DNA of 64,000 nt. It comes from Sphingomonas cremea. GTDB taxonomy: Bacteria; Pseudomonadota; Alphaproteobacteria; Sphingomonadales; Sphingomonadaceae. The translations under genes and the position numbers were made by a program. Shown here piece after piece: positions 4,291 through 61,256 of this stretch. Position 1 is the stretch's first letter; each line of letters opens with the position of its first letter. A model generated the notes under the pieces. The model made no database searches. It was not told the origin of the DNA and was given only the letters and a program-made list of their open reading frames with translations. The DNA is taken from NCBI RefSeq assembly GCF_021502585.1, contig NZ_JAKFGM010000001.1:992001-1056000 (forward strand), read 5' to 3'.

Positions 4291-5703
4291 ATGGCGAACG
4301 CCGCATCCAAAGTGCTGAAGCAGATCGAAGAAAATGAGATCGAATATGTCGACCTGCGTTTCACCGATCCGAAGGGGAAGTGGCAGCACCTGACCATGGT
4401 TGCCAGCGTGATCGACGAAGACATGCTGACCGACGGTTTTATGTTCGATGGCTCGTCGATCGCGGGGTGGAAGGCAATCAACGAGAGTGACATGATCCTC
4501 ATGCCCGACCTGGACGCAGTCTATGTCGACCCCTTCTCGTCTACTCCGATGCTGATCCTGGTCTGCAATGTGGTCGAGCCTTCGACCGGCGAGCTTTATG
4601 CCCGCGATCCGCGCTCGACCGCCACTCGCGCCGAGTCCTATCTGAAGGCTACTGGCGTCGGCGACACCGTGTTCGTCGGCCCCGAAGCCGAATTCTTCAT
4701 GTTCGACGACGTCCGCTTCGAGGACAGCTATAATGCCTCCGGCTTCAAGATTGACGACATCGAGCTCCCGACCAACTCGGGTCGCGAATATGAAGGCGGC
4801 AACCTCGCCCACCGCCCGCGGGCCAAGGGCGGTTACTTCCCGGTCGCACCGGTCGACAGCGCCGTCGATATTCGCGGGGAGATGGTCTCGACCATGCTCG
4901 AGATGGGGCTTCCTTGCGACAAGCATCACCATGAAGTCGCCGCCGCCCAGCATGAGCTTGGCCTGACCTATGGCAAGCTGGTCGAGACCGCCGATCGCAT
5001 GCAGGTCTACAAATATGTCGTGCACATGGTCGCGCATGCCTATGGCAAGACGGCAACCTTCATGCCCAAGCCGATCGCCCAGGATAACGGCAGCGGCATG
5101 CACACCCACATGTCGATCTGGAAGGACGGCAAGCCGCTTTTCGCCGGCAACGGCTATGCCGGGCTTAGCGAAATGGCCCTTTACTTCATCGGCGGCGTCA
5201 TCAAGCACGCCCGCGCCTTGAATGCCTTCACGAACCCGACCACCAACAGCTACAAGCGCCTGGTCCCGGGCTTCGAAGCGCCGGTGCTGCTGGCATATTC
5301 GAGCCGCAACCGCTCGGCATCCTGCCGCATCCCCTACGGCGCTGGTGAGAAGGCGAAGCGGGTCGAGTTCCGCTTCCCCGACGCGATGGCCAATCCCTAT
5401 CTCGCCTATGCGGCGCTGCTAATGGCGGGCCTCGACGGCATCCAGAACCGCATCCATCCGGGTGAAGCGATGGACAAGAACCTATACGACCTGCCGCCGG
5501 CGGAACTGGTCAACGTGCCCACCGTCTGCGGCTCGCTTCGCGAAGCGCTTAACGCACTAAGCAGCGACAAGGACTTTCTGTTGAAGGGCGACGTCTTCAC
5601 CGCCGACCAGATCGACGCCTATATCGAACTTAAGTGGGAAGAAGTAATGCGTTGGGAAACCACGCCGTCACCGGTCGAATTCGACATGTATTATTCGGCG
5701 TAA
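4291..5703 (+). CDS. glnA: Glutamine synthetase type I
   Basis: Catalyses ATP-dependent amidation of glutamate; the dodecameric GS-I-beta enzyme is the main ammonium assimilation point. The 470-residue length is typical. Visible motifs: DGSSIAGW (residues ~54-61), EAEFFMFD with metal-binding glutamates, [21 protein letters not shown] (ATP loop) and the NRSASCRIP region. The adenylylation site is Tyr399 in DKNLYDLPP, the mark of the GlnE-regulated class. With PII upstream this gives the standard PII-GlnE-GS cascade; glnE is not in the window. Confidence 0.99.
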
Positions 5704-54844: not shown

Positions 54845-56542
54845 CTAATTAGGCCAGTAGACAAATTCCTGGTCAGCACTCCAAGGCGCGTCGGCTGAGA
54901 AATCGATGCGGATTGGTTCTTCAAGCAGCGCCGGCCACAGCGGCTTGGGCATCTCGCGATCGTGGGCAATGAGCTCGGCGTGAAGGCGTTGCACATGATC
55001 GGGCCGCTGGGTTGAAAGATCAGCCCGTTCGGTCGGATCGGTCGCCAGGTCGAACAGCCAGGTCCGGGCCGGATTTTTCGAAACCTGCAACTTCCAGTCG
55101 CCGTGCCGGATCGCCTTATAGTCGCCCGACCGCCAAAACAGCTTACGTTCGACCGGGGACGCCGCGCTCCCTGTCGCGAAGGGCAACAGGTTGAGGCCAT
55201 CCATTTGCCGGTCGCTCGGCATTGCCGCGCCCGCCGCTGCTGCCGCCGTGGCGAAGACATCGACGTGCTGAACCGGCATCGACAGCCGCTGGCCGGCAGC
55301 AATCTTGCCTGGCCAGCGGATGAAGAAGGGCACGCGAATGCCGCCTTCGAAGAAGGTCCCCTTCCAACCGCGAAAGGGTTTGTTGAGGTCGGGCAGACCC
55401 GCATACCACGCGCCACCATTGTCATTGGTGAAAATGACGATGGTGTCGTCATCGATGCCTTGCGCCTTCAATGCGTCCATGACCTGACCAACGCCTCGGT
55501 CGAGCGCACTGACCATGGCGCCATAGACACGCGTCTTGTGGTCCGTGATCGCCGACAGTGCGTCATAGTCGCTTTGAGTTGCCTGGAACGGCGTGTGCGG
55601 CGCGCTGTAGGCGAGGTACAGGAAGAACGGCCGGTTGCGGTTGGCCTCAATCGCCGCGACCGCCTGCCCGCTGAGATAGTCGGTAATATACTCGCCGGCG
55701 TGAAAATGCGGGCCGCCGTTGAACTGGACGGCGTCGGTCAGGGCCAACTAAAGGAGTCGGTCGAGGGGATCACCTGCAATCCTGGCCTCGACGCAATGGT
55801 CGGAAAGATATTTGATGGCTCCAGCCAGGAAGCCAAGGCTCTCGTCGAAACCCTGTTCCTCGGGTCGCATCCCGGGCGCCTCACCAACATGCCATTTGCC
55901 CAGATGTATGGTGTGATAGCCGCTCTGTTTCAGTATCTCGGCGATTGTCACTTCGCCGCCGGGTAAGCCCATTGCTTCCATCGGGGGCACCCGGCCTTGG
56001 CGCTCAGCGTGATAGATCGTCGGATACGGCCGCCCCTTGGGGGAGTGGCGCGGGACATACTTTGCCAGCTGGCTGGGAACTGCAGTGAATTCGAAGCCGA
56101 ACCGGGCGGGGTAGCGGCCGGTCAATAGTGCCGCGCGCGAAGGCGAACAGGTGGCGTGGGCGGCATAGCCCTGCGTGAACTGAGCGCCTTCATGGGCCAG
56201 GGCGTCGATTTTGGGCGTCTGGACCAGACCGCCGGCAACGCCGCAGCCGGCACCCTCAACGCTGATGTCGTTGAAGCCAAGGTCGTCGGCAACGATCAAG
56301 ACGATGTTGGGCGGGCGGTCGCCAGTGGGCAGCGCCGCGGGACCCCTTTCCCACGTCACCGGCTGCGTCGGTTTCACCGGCCGGCGGAGCCGGACAATCA
56401 GCACCATCAGTTGAACCGGAAAGAGGAGCCATAGGATCGACAAGCTTGCTGCCAGTAACGCGACTACGGCGACGGTAACCTCCACAAACCGCACAGCTCT
56501 CTCCTTGACCGTCAATAACTTCCGCAAGGCATTGTTGTTCAC
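54845..56542 (-). pseudogene. Membrane-anchored sulfatase interrupted by an amber codon
   Basis: One sulfatase reading frame from ATG 56542 to 54845 with a single in-frame TAG at 55750-55748 and no frame change. The N-part has a transmembrane anchor (~18-45), NIVLIVADDLGFND with metal Asp residues, the formylglycine motif ATCSPSRAALLTGRYPAR, and HLGKWHVG. The C-part continues GPHFHAG...RPFFLYLAYSAPHTPFQ, FTNDNGGAWY (DNG metal site) and IRWPGK. The codon lost is most likely TGG (Trp) in a DRLLx segment. The intact sulfatase at 47 kb shows the class is otherwise functional here. Confidence 0.85.
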
Positions 56543-57626: not shown

Positions 57627-57914
57627 ATGAAACATTCCGAAAATGCGGCCTGGCTTAAGCTTGGCGTCGACGCCTGGTCGCTCGGCTGGCAAGCCGCTCG
57701 CGTCATGGGCCTTCGCACCGCCAAAATGGCCGAGGGCGGTCCCGCCGCGGGGATCGAGGCATGGCTGATGCTGTCGGAAAAATGGCAGGCCGCGGCGGAG
57801 CTTCATGCCGACCTGCTGACCCGCGGGTCCAGCGCCAGCCCCGTAACCGCCACCCGCCGCACCCTTGCCCATTACAAGCGCAAGGTCGCCGCCAACGACC
57901 GGCGCCTCCGCTAA
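57627..57914 (+). CDS. Hypothetical protein, phasin-like helical
   Basis: 95 residues from ATG 57627 (ATG 57546 is in frame; neither has a clear ribosome-binding site). The sequence WLKLGVDAWSLGWQAARVMGLR and WLMLSEKWQAAAELHADLLTR forms long amphipathic helices with conserved-looking Trp; the shape recalls phasin-like proteins, but I cannot assign it. End is basic (KRKVAANDRRLR). Confidence 0.7.
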   Translation: MKHSENAAWLKLGVDAWSLGWQAARVMGLRTAKMAEGGPAAGIEAWLMLSEKWQAAAELHADLLTRGSSASPVTATRRTLAHYKRKVAANDRRLR

Positions 57915-58100
57915 CCGCCGCTTGCGGCTGCGACGAGTTTCATTTTTTCAGCGCCGAAACGACTTTGGGACATATTGCCTACTAATCTAGTAGGGATTAG
58001 AAAATCCTTGTTAACCCGTGCGCGGCTCCCCTGCGGCGCGGTAAAACGGGGGCAGGTTTACCGAGCACTAGGCCTGCCCCCCATTATCTCCCACAGTATC

Positions 58101-58178
58101 TATCGAAATCAATTCGATACTTATCGAAATAAGGCTTGACTCCGCCTGGTTGATTTGTCATTTCGATTTCTATCGAAA
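58101..58178 (+). promoter_or_regulatory. Promoter and two ArsR-type operators of the arsenic operon
   Basis: First dyad: TATCGAA at 58101-58107 with TTCGATA at 58113-58119, perfect 7-bp arms, 5-nt spacer. A third half-site TATCGAA is at 58122-58128. Second dyad: TTTCGAT at 58161-58167 with ATCGAAA at 58172-58178. Between them is TTGACT (58136-58141), a good -35. The second dyad runs into the AAGGAGG ribosome-binding site at 58177-58183, so ArsR binding would also cover the start region. Confidence 0.8.
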
Positions 58179-58187
58179 GGAGGATTT

Positions 58188-58292
58188 ATGCGACTCATCG
58201 CTATCCTGCGCGGCCTGTGGAATCGCTGGACCGCCGCTCCGCCCGCTCCCTGCTGCTCCGGCTGCCCCATCCATTTTGCCAATTTCCGCTAA
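58188..58292 (+). CDS. 34-residue cysteine-rich ORF leading the ars operon
   Basis: ATG 58188 follows a perfect AAGGAGG 4 nt upstream, the best ribosome-binding site of the operon. The product is MRLIAILRGLWNRWTAAPPA then PCCSGCPIHFANFR: a short amphipathic helix, a Pro linker and a CCxxC with a nearby His (Cys22, Cys23, Cys26, His29). Its stop overlaps the arsR start by one base (TAATG). Metal(loid) binding, sensing or a translational leader role are all possible; inferred from position and cysteines only. Confidence 0.75.
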   Translation: MRLIAILRGLWNRWTAAPPAPCCSGCPIHFANFR

Positions 58293-58630
58293 TGGATATC
58301 GACGCCGCGATCGTAGCCCTCGGCGCCTTGGCGCAGGAGCATCGACTTGCCCTCTTCCGCCTGCTCGTCCAGGCCGGTGACGAGGGCATGTCTGCCGGCG
58401 CGATCGCGGGGAAGCTGGGCATTCCCAACAGCTCGCTGTCCTTCCACCTTGCCCAGCTCCGCGAAGCCGGCCTGATCACGCAGGAACGGCAGCACCGCTC
58501 GCTGATCTACCGCGCCGACTATGCCGCGACGAACGGGCTGGTCGCCTACCTCACCGAAAACTGCTGCGCCGGCGCCGACTGCTCGGCCCCCGCCTCCCCT
58601 GTTCCCCAAGCCAAAAGGAAAAGCGCGTGA
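58292..58630 (+). CDS. arsR: ArsR-family arsenite-responsive repressor
   Basis: 112 residues from ATG 58292. Winged-helix core with recognition helix in GIPNSSLSFHLAQLREAGLI. The metalloid ligands are at the C-terminal end: Cys91, Cys92 and Cys97 (ENCCAGADC), resembling Acidithiobacillus ferrooxidans ArsR (Cys95, Cys96, Cys102), not the alpha-3 CVC type of E. coli. It should repress the operon through the dyads at 58101-58178 and release on As(III) or trivalent organoarsenicals. Confidence 0.93.
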   Translation: MDIDAAIVALGALAQEHRLALFRLLVQAGDEGMSAGAIAGKLGIPNSSLSFHLAQLREAGLITQERQHRSLIYRADYAATNGLVAYLTENCCAGADCSAPASPVPQAKRKSA

Positions 58631-59118
58631 AGCGAATGCATGTCCATGTCGGGGTCGAGGATCTCGACGCCTCGACCCGATTCTATTCAACCCTGTTCGG
58701 CGCCGATCCGGCCGTCACAAAGCATGACTATGCCAAGTGGATGCTGGACGACCCGCGGGTCAATTTCGCTATCTCCGCGGGCCATCATGAGGTGAAGGGC
58801 ATCGAGCATCTCGGCATACAGGTCGAAACCGGCGAGGAGCTGGCCGAGGTCTATGGCCGGCTGAAGGCCGCCGACCGCCCGGTGCTGGAAGAAGGCGCGA
58901 CCACTTGCTGCTACGCCAAGAGCGAGAAGAACTGGATCAGCGACCCCGATGGCGTCGTTTGGGAAACTTTCTTCACCGGCGGCGACGCCACCGTCTACGG
59001 CGAAAGTCCGACGCTGACCGCTGCTTCGCTCAACGCATCGAGTGAAACCTGCTGCGCGCCGGCCTTGCGGGAAGCGCCGGTCTGCAATTCCAGCAACGCG
59101 AAATCGACAATTGGCTGA
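58627..59118 (+). CDS. arsI: ArsI/CadI-family vicinal oxygen chelate protein (C-As lyase-like)
   Basis: 163 residues from GTG 58627, overlapping arsR by 4 nt. ArsI cleaves the carbon-arsenic bond of trivalent organoarsenicals. Visible: N-terminal His5/His7 (RMHVHVG), His61 (IEHLGIQV), the diagnostic vicinal Cys94-Cys95 in TTCCYAKSEKNW, and metal Glu113 in DPDGVVWETFF. The substrate-binding pair and the three metal ligands are therefore all intact. The tail has a second CC (TCCAPALREAPVC). CadI-type naming is possible for the same family. Confidence 0.9.
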   Translation: MKRMHVHVGVEDLDASTRFYSTLFGADPAVTKHDYAKWMLDDPRVNFAISAGHHEVKGIEHLGIQVETGEELAEVYGRLKAADRPVLEEGATTCCYAKSEKNWISDPDGVVWETFFTGGDATVYGESPTLTAASLNASSETCCAPALREAPVCNSSNAKSTIG

Positions 59119-59647
59119 CCAGCTGACGATCCGCACCGCCGACCCCCGCGACGCAGCCGCGACCGCGGCGATCTATGCCCACCACGTCGCCCACGGCACC
59201 GCCTCGTTCGACACCGAACCGCGCAGCGAAGCCGAAATGGCGGCGAAAATCGGGGACTGCACCGCGCGCGGCTGGCCGTTCCTCGTGGCAGAGGCGGACG
59301 GCGAGGTGGTCGGCTATGCCTATGCCACCCAGTTCCGAGACCGCCCGGCCTACACTTCGACCTGCGAGAACAGCATTTACCTCCACCCCGACCATCTCGG
59401 CCAGGGGATTGGCTCGCAGCTGCTCGCTGCCCTCATCGACGCGGCGGAGCGTGCTGGATTCCGCCAGATGATCGCGGTGGTCGGCGGCGCCGAGCGTGCC
59501 TCCGCCGCACTCCACGCCAGGGCCGGTTTCGTCGAGGCCGGGCGGATGCGCTCGGTCGGCCGCAAGCTCGGCCGCTGGCTCGACACGCTCTACATGCAGA
59601 AATCGCTCGGCCCTGGCGACGCGGTCGCGCCTGACGTCGAGCCATGA
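59111..59647 (+). CDS. arsN: GNAT acetyltransferase, ArsN/phosphinothricin-acetyltransferase type
   Basis: 178 residues from TTG 59111, inside the arsI end; an earlier in-frame start at 59042 is less likely. The sequence RTADPRDAAATAAIYAHHVAHGTASFD and the acetyl-CoA loop HLGQGIGSQLL with YLHPDHLGQG are typical of the PAT/ArsN branch. ArsN1 proteins acetylate arsinothricin, an organoarsenical glutamine synthetase inhibitor; PAT acts on the phosphorus analogue. The operon context supports the arsenic role, but phosphinothricin activity cannot be excluded. Confidence 0.85.
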   Translation: MADQLTIRTADPRDAAATAAIYAHHVAHGTASFDTEPRSEAEMAAKIGDCTARGWPFLVAEADGEVVGYAYATQFRDRPAYTSTCENSIYLHPDHLGQGIGSQLLAALIDAAERAGFRQMIAVVGGAERASAALHARAGFVEAGRMRSVGRKLGRWLDTLYMQKSLGPGDAVAPDVEP

Positions 59648-60330
59648 GCGGCGAACCGCTTTCGCGGCGGCTGGCGGCGGAGGGACTGGGCTCCTTCTTC
59701 CTGTTCGCCACCGTCATCGGGTCGGGCATCATGGCCGAAGCGCTGGCGGGGGGAAATATCGCCATCGCCCTCCTCGGCAACACGCTTGCGACCGGCGCGA
59801 TGCTGTTCGTTCTGATCACCATGCTGGGCGCGATATCGGGCGCCCATTTCAACCCCGCGGTGACCCTGGTGATGGCCGGGCGGGGCGCACTGCCATGGCG
59901 CGACGCGGCGCCCTACATCCTAGCTCAGCTCTCTGGCGGACTCCTCGGTGCCTGGGCGGCGCATGTGATGTTCGACCTGCCGATCATCCAATATTCGCTC
60001 AAGGCCCGGACCGGCATCGGCCAATGGACTGGCGAGCTTGTCGCGACCTTCGGTCTCATCCTCACCATTCTCGGGACGCTGAAGCATCGACCCAGTGCGG
60101 TCCCCGCGTCGGTCGCACTCTATATCTCCGCCGCTTATTGGTTCACCTCCTCGACCAGCTTCGCCAATCCGGCGATCACGGTGATCAGGAGCTTGAGCAA
60201 CAGCTTCGCCGGCATCGCCCCGCGCGATGTCCCGCTGTTCATCGCCGCACAGCTTGCCGGCGCCCTGCTGGCCGCACTCGCAGCTACTTTCCTATTCGAT
60301 GAAGGCGCACGACGGCGCCGGACCTCTTAG
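59644..60330 (+). CDS. aqpS: Aquaporin-family channel, AqpS-like
   Basis: 228 residues, six helices with two half-helices. First pore motif HFNPAVTL (NPA) and second FANPAITV (NPA) are both intact. The position at the end of an ars operon matches aqpS of rhizobia, which conducts As(III) and methylated arsenicals down-gradient. It starts within the arsN stop (ATGA). There is no arsC, arsB or acr3 in the window, so efflux would rely on this channel. Confidence 0.9.
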   Translation: MSGEPLSRRLAAEGLGSFFLFATVIGSGIMAEALAGGNIAIALLGNTLATGAMLFVLITMLGAISGAHFNPAVTLVMAGRGALPWRDAAPYILAQLSGGLLGAWAAHVMFDLPIIQYSLKARTGIGQWTGELVATFGLILTILGTLKHRPSAVPASVALYISAAYWFTSSTSFANPAITVIRSLSNSFAGIAPRDVPLFIAAQLAGALLAALAATFLFDEGARRRRTS

Positions 60331-61256
60331 GCCGCCGCCTCCAGCGGCGATGCCTTGGACGCCTCGACCTGGCGCAGCAGCCATTGCTTGAAGCGCTTGA
60401 TCTTGGGGACGTTGCGTCGTTCCGGCGATATGCACAGCCAGTAACGGAAGCCGGCGGTGGCAGTCAGGTCGAACGGCTGGCACAACCGCTCGTCCTTCAG
60501 GTCGTTTTTCCAGAAAGCCGGGGTCAGCAACACGAAGCCCTGCCCGCCCATAGCCGCATGGCCCTCGTCCGCCTGGCTATCGAGCCTGAGGCCCGGCTTG
60601 CGCGGCCGATGCTCGGCCTCGACCCCCGCCGCCGCGAACCAGCGGTCCCACCAATAGTCTTCCGGGCTGATCAGCGGCAGGTGCGGAAGGTCGGCAGGCT
60701 CCGGCGGTCGGCCAAGCTCCTCTGTCATCCGCTTCCAGAAGGACGGAGCGCACATCGGCGTGAAATCGACCGTCATCAGCTCGGTGCAATCCAGCCCTTC
60801 CCACGGCTCCGCCCCGGCGCGGATCGCGACGTCGGCCTCGCCCGCCTTCAGGTCGACCAGCTTGTTGGCGGTCGCCAGGCGCACAGCCAGGTCGGGGTGC
60901 TCGACCTGGAAACCTCCCAGCCGCCATGCGAGCCAAGTGTTGGCGAAGGTAAAGGTGGTCGCCACGGTCAGCAGCGCCTCGTCTTCCTCCCGATGCGCGG
61001 CGAAGGCTTGTTCGATCATATCGAATGCCTGGCTCAGCTGCGGCAGCAGGCGCTGGCCCAACGGTGTTAGTCGCGCCCGCCCGCGTTCGCGCACGAACAG
61101 GGACGCGCCAAGCCGCTCCTCCAATAATTTGACCTGATAGGATACCGCTGCCTGGGTCATTCCCAATTCGGTCGCTGCAGCAGTGAAATTCTCTAGGCGA
61201 GCCGCCGCTTCAAATACGCGAACCGCAGCCAGTGGAGGAAGTCGTCTCATCGTCAA
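60327..61256 (-). CDS. LysR-family transcriptional regulator (GcvA-like)
   Basis: 309 residues. N-terminal HTH LPPLAAVRVFEAAARLENFTAAATELGMTQAAVSYQVKLLE is the GcvA-type signature, and the effector domain contains LAWRLGGFQVEHPDLAVRLAT. Convergent with aqpS (stop codons overlap) and divergent from a small gene at 61392, the more likely target. Effector unknown. Confidence 0.92.
   Translation of the reverse strand: MTMRRLPPLAAVRVFEAAARLENFTAAATELGMTQAAVSYQVKLLEERLGASLFVRERGRARLTPLGQRLLPQLSQAFDMIEQAFAAHREEDEALLTVATTFTFANTWLAWRLGGFQVEHPDLAVRLATANKLVDLKAGEADVAIRAGAEPWEGLDCTELMTVDFTPMCAPSFWKRMTEELGRPPEPADLPHLPLISPEDYWWDRWFAAAGVEAEHRPRKPGLRLDSQADEGHAAMGGQGFVLLTPAFWKNDLKDERLCQPFDLTATAGFRYWLCISPERRNVPKIKRFKQWLLRQVEASKASPLEAAA

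Follow-up and report, generated by a model that had tools for sequence, protein, structure and literature searches.

The genes considered here lie in a 64,000-nucleotide stretch of Sphingomonas cremea DNA (contig NZ_JAKFGM010000001.1), referred to in its entirety as the window, and comprise five open reading frames (ORFs) found on the forward strand between 58188 and 60330. In order, these are a small ORF (sORF) encoding a peptide with a Cys pair, termed here the microgene, followed by arsR, arsI, an arsN-like acetyltransferase gene, and the channel gene aqp. On the basis of sequence, we consider it fairly probable that they form an ArsR-controlled arsenical-detoxification (ars) operon, in which the acetyltransferase gene occupies a swappable slot and translation of the microgene most likely controls arsR. 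In this reading the gene content, conservation, module boundaries, and presence or absence of genes are observed, and the activities and regulation are all inferred. As a regulatory circuit, the ars operon is a textbook case, and a microgene located between its operator and repressor gene would add either a translational layer or an arsenic-binding peptide; a gene of this size is easily overlooked by annotation.

In the proposed mechanism, trivalent arsenicals would release ArsR from twin palindromes upstream of the microgene. ArsI, to judge from its family, would split methylarsenite to arsenite, and arsenite would leave the cell downhill via the channel, as judged from AqpS. The same channel would serve arsenite produced from arsenate by an ArsC encoded on contig 3 of the genome. 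The acetyltransferase would be an accessory, encoded in the slot that separates arsI from the transporter gene. Translation of arsR would most likely be controlled by that of the microgene, because the arsR of the window is devoid of a recognizable Shine-Dalgarno (SD) sequence and its ATG overlaps the microgene stop codon.

The layout reported in the first-pass annotation, five genes in this order with overlaps of 1 to 8 nucleotides (nt), is borne out, with successive overlaps of 1, 4, 8, and 4 nt. The start codons of arsI and the arsN-like gene are GTG and TTG, respectively. The further claim that arsC, acr3, and arsM are missing also stands within the cluster itself.

The microgene and the operator region

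The microgene (58188..58292, forward strand) encodes a peptide of 34 amino acids, MRLIAILRGLWNRWTAAPPAPCCSGCPIHFANFR, and its stop codon overlaps the ATG of arsR in the sequence TAATG. A first profile, built from five sORFs spotted by eye upstream of arsR, was run on 71 genomes of the genus. At a limit of E 1, some match was returned in 70 of them, and nine genomes stand out at E ≤2.1e-7, a cut chosen after the list was inspected; the next match, at 9.2e-4, is partial and contains a stop codon. All nine strong matches lie directly upstream of arsR, including four that were absent from the profile building, and a chance ORF is rejected as an explanation because nine matches stand out and every one adjoins arsR. 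When a profile of all nine members was run on 396 genomes of the order, matches at E ≤0.001 were found in nine genomes. Four are strong and belong to the same genus, and five are partial (E 1.5e-4 to 7.2e-4), with two in the genus and three outside it, all five counted on the match alone. NCBIfam gave no match for the microgene, nor did one tblastn search of 72,556 plasmids with the peptide of the window.

The nine peptides are 31–35 amino acids in length and share M, L, P, C, and the final R without exception. Their consensus opens with MRL, continues through a helix-prone segment to PPxPCC, and closes with FR. The Cys pair is C-terminal to the prolines and 9–12 residues from the end of the peptide, such that it is presumably still inside the ribosome tunnel at termination.

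The operator region contains two ArsR-box-like palindromes, neither assigned to a strand. The upstream copy, ATTCGATACTTATCGAAA (58112..58129), agrees with TTTCGA-N6-TCGAAA at 11 of 12 positions, and the downstream copy, TTTCGATTTCTATCGAAA (58161..58178), 49 nt further on, is the sole exact match in the window. When up to two mismatches are permitted there are six matches in the window against 2.46 expected, a number reached in 2 of 100 shuffles. The SD sequence of the microgene, AAAGGAGG, begins within the downstream palindrome. The repressor itself (58292..58630, forward strand) scores 59.2 bits against NF033788 (cut-off 55) and has 6j05 as its best solved relative. Its C91, C92, and C97, in an NCC-x4-C arrangement, align with the ENCC and DC of that structure, whose three C-terminal Cys residues we take to be the AfArsR-type site. 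Judged by sequence, this three-Cys, AfArsR-like layout does not point to a sensor of organoarsenicals only.

Related loci were collected with an ArsR query of the same 71 genomes, which returned 27 matches. The 19 closest (E ≤4.2e-37) were kept and eight weaker ones set aside, with arsI not seen at the three of these eight that were inspected. Among the 19, arsI is present in 17 and the sORF in nine. Twin copies of the palindrome (at least 10 of 12 positions), spaced by 47–49 nt, occur in 18 of the 19, of which 17 have TTGAC between the copies. A single copy is seen at each of two loci outside the genus. The distance from the second palindrome to the NSSLSFHL-type codons of arsR is 259–269 nt in the nine sORF loci versus 166–172 nt in the ten others, and the microgene is thus a unit of about 100 nt that lies, with the palindrome carrying its ribosome-binding site on one side, in front of arsR. 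In seven of the ten loci without the sORF, GAGGA is seen by eye shortly upstream of arsR.

The distribution of the microgene was also followed on a tree built from 19 pairs of ArsR and ArsI (17 from genus loci and two from outside), from which G035 and G066 were dropped for want of arsI and in which support is below 80 on 10 of 16 inner branches. Shuffled sORF labels average 6.4 changes, whereas the actual label requires three, a number as low being reached in 3 of 500 shuffles; the sORF is therefore clustered by descent. We propose from these sequence features that the microgene encodes either a leader peptide or a small arsenic-binding peptide that is coupled to arsR.

A role in trans, which we regard as possible but doubtful, would see the product as a small helical Cys-pair peptide that binds arsenite or methylarsenite, either as a buffer or for transfer to ArsI or the channel. 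Conservation at the protein level agrees with this, with the Cys pair found in eight of the nine members and C-x-C in the ninth, as does the AlphaFold2 model, which has a helix at residues 2–15 with a predicted local distance difference test score of 80 for the first block and a mean of 66, that is, low overall confidence. A channel is also encoded at all eight sORF loci with a recognized transporter, whereas the ten loci without the sORF have six channels and four Acr3 transporters. However, this bias may reflect shared ancestry, and the amphipathicity of the helix, which is above that of shuffles in six of nine members (uncorrected p <0.05), is not so for the peptide of the window (0.24). 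Moreover, in G035, a genome that is 83% complete, the sORF and arsR persist together and no ars gene is recognized alongside (by tblastn of the first kilobases and inspection by eye of the ORFs of 9 kb), which favors a role for the microgene that is tied to arsR.

At the other extreme, the microgene might be a mere coupling spacer for arsR, with its amino acids irrelevant, which we think unlikely. The junction suits such a device: stop codon and arsR ATG overlap by 1 nt in seven of the nine loci and are 1 nt apart in two (G010 and G029), and the best SD match covers 1–4 of 6 positions before arsR and 3–6 of 6 before the sORF, being stronger before the sORF in eight of nine loci. Yet the in-frame ratio of nonsynonymous to synonymous polymorphism is 0.59 for the six members of equal length and 0.61 when all nine are included, whereas the same six reach 1.12 and 1.19 when read out of frame, and the PPxPCC-like core and terminal R are kept.

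A more specific form of coupled translation is that of an arsenic-sensing leader. Here trivalent arsenicals would bind the Cys pair of the nascent or just-released chain and, together with the proline stretch, would affect how the ribosome advances or is released, and through this re-initiation at arsR. To this version we give little credence; if true, repressor synthesis would be set by arsenic at translation besides transcription. There are precedents for metal sensing by Cys/Pro-motif leaders in the copper upstream ORFs CruR and CutF (DUF2946 or CutF-like), as described in two reports (PMC9426467, PMC9973294). As there, a small ORF with Cys and proline motifs heads a metal-response operon. 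In contrast to those ORFs, however, the present sORF is 31–35 amino acids in length, has its Cys pair after the prolines, has no consensus RNA structure, and has no match in Pfam, DUF2946 included, up to E=1 (three of nine members scanned, with CutF-like clusters outside Pfam not compared). It also meets arsR in a stop/start overlap, where cruR is followed by a long intergenic region. As the geometry, sequence, and coupling all differ, the likeness is at most an analogy. In titles and abstract openings of the literature on small ORFs, leaders, or upstream features of ars operons, with most subscription journals outside that scope, no arsenic leader ORF is described.

Gene content of the slot downstream of arsI

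The position between arsI and the transporter gene appears, from comparison of sequences, to be a swappable slot. Among the 17 operons of the genus with arsI, it holds arsN in three (the window, G086, and G080), arsC in six (five full-length low-molecular-weight (LMW) arsC genes and one glutaredoxin arsC), an arsC fragment in two, a cupin-like gene in two, and nothing recognized in four, where marker genes alone were searched. The fragments are a 65-residue ORF in G077 (L179, 2949–3146) and a 54-residue match in G019 (L155), and would fit repeated losses of arsC in this set of operons. The transporter is a channel in 13 of the 17 and Acr3 in four. The order arsR-arsI-arsN-aqp is shared with two other genomes of the genus, the taxon in which it was sought, with all five genes present in G086 and the sORF missing from G080.

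The cupin-like protein, of 105 amino acids, is encoded between arsI and aqp in G072 (L176, 2204–2521) and G068 (L177, 2114–2431). The match of the G072 protein to Pfam Cupin_2 (E 4.2e-4) falls below the cut-off, and the gene that encodes this protein is a candidate for a new ars accessory gene.

More widely, 36 loci were obtained by scanning genome contigs with the ArsI protein, and the ArsI profile was over its cut-off in 11 of 61 genomes, that of the window included. At these 47 loci, some of which may overlap, an arsC-type gene is found within 6 kb in 31 and an arsN-like gene in two (L026 and the window). Acr3 and LMW-ArsC labels were assigned by clustering, with one representative of each checked: the Acr3 representative is over its cut-off, and the LMW-ArsC representative is over the Pfam but below the NCBIfam cut-offs.

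The acetyltransferase that fills the slot in the window (59111..59647, forward strand) is an ArsN-like GNAT N-acetyltransferase. PpArsN1, whose structure is 5jtf, has a gate of Arg75 and Arg77 and a Phe33 that are named in its report (PMC6465285). The present protein has F33 and FRDR at 75–78, as read from its own numbering without residue alignment to PpArsN1, and R-x-R is likewise present in the solved acetyltransferases with which it was aligned. Among solved structures, the protein is closest to acetyltransferases other than PpArsN1 (9igk, 9igl, 4jxq, and 5dwm, at 145–155 bits), and 5jtf is much lower, at 84.3 bits. Homologues at E ≤1e-30 are present in 124 of 396 genomes of the order. Considering the best 30 of these loci, a search of 1.5 kb around each showed ars genes at five, the window included; the 29 others are 57–72% identical to the protein of the window, and 25 of them are without any tested ars gene within that distance, including the closest such homologue, at 72% and from the same genus (G065).

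On a tree of 32 homologues (the 30 best loci plus G086 and G080), seven are ars-linked, of which L126 is linked solely to a channel gene and L121 lies at a contig end. The ars-linked label takes six changes for these seven, with 209 of 500 shuffles as low, and an ars-specific ArsN clade is thus unsupported, linkage being tested to 1.5 kb. A single gain of arsN in these operons is likewise unsupported, with three changes for three rows of the ArsR-ArsI tree and 500 of 500 shuffles as low. Either arsN-like genes shuttle in and out of ars operons, or linkage says little about substrate. In L126 (G079, 1492–2674), an arsN-like gene is paired with a channel gene, and neither ArsR nor ArsI is matched within the surrounding 3.5 kb; this pair suggests that arsN and aqp may travel together. 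With respect to substrate, the enzyme probably acts on an amino acid that resembles glutamate, with arsinothricin, phosphinothricin, and methionine sulfoximine as candidates; to name arsinothricin specifically, as the first-pass annotation did, is a guess from position.

The assignments of ArsI and ArsR are well supported. ArsI (58627..59118, forward strand), an ArsI/CadI-family VOC enzyme and candidate C-As lyase, scores 131.3 bits against NF041414 (cut-off 116) and aligns with the solved 5d4f and 5c4p over residues 3–121, in agreement with its original identification. Within this region are H5 (Q in the two structures), H61, E113, and the pair C94-C95, which we take to be the metal-ligand and Cys-pair positions of ArsI. 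A second CC pair, as in ETCCAP or KCCLP, is seen near the C-terminus in 16 of 17 genus sequences (59044–59061 in the window). It falls outside the region aligned with solved ArsI, and the 17th sequence, a piece from G076, stops before it.

The channel (59644..60330, forward strand) belongs to the MIP family (PF00230, 85.5 bits, cut-off 25) and is AqpS-like by context. Its NPA motifs are at residues 70 and 175, and its best solved relative is the plant NIP2-1. Many MIPs carry an Arg after the second NPA as part of their filter. Counted from NPA, and with AqpS itself not compared, the filter here has T at the helix-2 position and I in place of that Arg. Channels of the AqpS type are described as arsenite exits in two papers (PMC6205960, PMC4435449). 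The channel gene of G010 (L066, L152) matches as two pieces and may be broken.

The scope of the operon and related systems

Several of the results weigh against the reading of the operon given at the outset. The sORF is absent from 10 of the 19 arsR loci. The SD match before arsR reaches 4/6 in G071, where that before the sORF is 3/6, and is also 4/6 in G024. The sORF leaders share no consensus pairs, the folding energy of the six of nine that were folded is not unusual (z -0.89 to +1.63), and pairing of the arsR start codon, with starts chosen by a simple rule, is 0.60 at the nine sORF loci versus 0.66 at the ten others, with no excess. As an Rfam scan of 57800–60500 also gave no match at the gathering score, an RNA attenuator or riboswitch is unsupported. 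The acetyltransferase is below every curated cut-off, with 151.6 bits against ArsN1b (210), its best-scoring model, 116.4 against ArsN1a (170), and 107.9 against PPT (300), the ArsN1a and ArsN1b models being NF040503 and NF040504. Seven homologues, five ars-linked and two not, are likewise below 210, at 122.7 (a fragment) to 153.7 bits. Other arsenical routes are possible, as ArsH, ArsJ, and ArsK were outside the searches.

The first-pass annotation held that the operon is specialized for organoarsenicals and recommended a search of the genome, which is 2.55 Mb in nine contigs and rated 100% complete, for arsC, acr3, arsM, and arsP. For Acr3, LMW-type ArsC, ArsP, and ArsB, there is no genome-wide match, with each search positive in 6–11 of the 14 control genomes. 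For ArsM there are nine matches, the best at 52.8 bits and none over the cut-off of 263; the same search gives matches in all 14 controls and exceeds the cut-off in one. An arsC was found, however, in the form of a glutaredoxin-type ArsC-family gene on contig 3, the product of which scores 136.4 bits against TIGR00014 (cut-off 106.05) and is an arsenate reductase by that standard. The 3.3 kb around this gene contain no ars-type palindrome, and to that extent the refutation named in the first-pass annotation, an arsC elsewhere under the same ArsR, was not seen. The phrase 'without arsC' holds for the operon and not for the cell. The ArsC family, whose members here need not be one orthologue or all arsenate reductases, occurs in 67 of the 71 genomes of the genus and in every one of the 53 with completeness of at least 90% and contamination of at most 5%. 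The swappable slot beside the arsR-arsI-transporter core suggests that arsenate reduction can leave the operon where arsC exists elsewhere.

An operon dedicated to organoarsenicals, in which ArsI would deal with methylarsenite, ArsN with arsinothricin, and the channel with organic arsenicals, inorganic arsenic being outside its job, is in our estimation improbable. It gains from the presence of arsI, from the absence of arsC, acr3, and arsM in the cluster and of any Acr3, ArsB, or ArsP match in the genome, and from the recurrence of the arsR-arsI-arsN-aqp order in the genus. Against it are the arsC encoded elsewhere, a channel family described for arsenite exit in the papers cited above, the ArsR layout, and an acetyltransferase that is below cut-off and whose best homologues mostly lack ars neighbors. 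Furthermore, 8 of 17 slots are without an intact arsC or arsN; given such varied contents beside an arsR-arsI-transporter core, the lack of an arsC in the cluster is not to be read as specialization. The first-pass view is thus partly supported, but its strong form, organoarsenicals only and with arsinothricin as a substrate, is not established.

A detoxification operon of the broader kind favored here has relatives among known systems. An ars operon with aqpS and arsC in Sinorhizobium meliloti was reportedly described by Yang et al. in 2005. Two papers likewise place both genes in that operon (PMC6205960, PMC4435449). The two operons share control by ArsR and, in place of ArsB, an aquaglyceroporin for the exit of arsenite. 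The present operon differs in that arsC is outside it, arsI and an arsN-like gene are present, and the microgene comes first; AqpS was not compared by sequence. Operons with arsN1 are also known (Nadar et al. 2019, PMC6465285), and the genome list in that work includes Sphingopyxis, Sphingomonas, and Porphyrobacter. They share with the present operon a PAT-like acetyltransferase gene within an ars operon and the same bacterial group, but the protein in the window is below the ArsN1a and ArsN1b cut-offs.

Elsewhere in the window, a glutamine-synthetase-type signature motif is found near 5086. The first-pass annotation had hinted at a connection with arsinothricin, and this is rejected: at about 53 kb from the operon the motif provides no linkage and no evidence. 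Immediately 3' of aqp, a convergent gene that is LysR-like by eye occupies 60327–61256 on the reverse strand. On the same strand, a frame judged by eye to be sulfatase-like (54845–56542) is split into the abutting ORFs 55748–56542 and 54845–55747; it looks frameshifted and could be either a pseudogene or a sequencing error.

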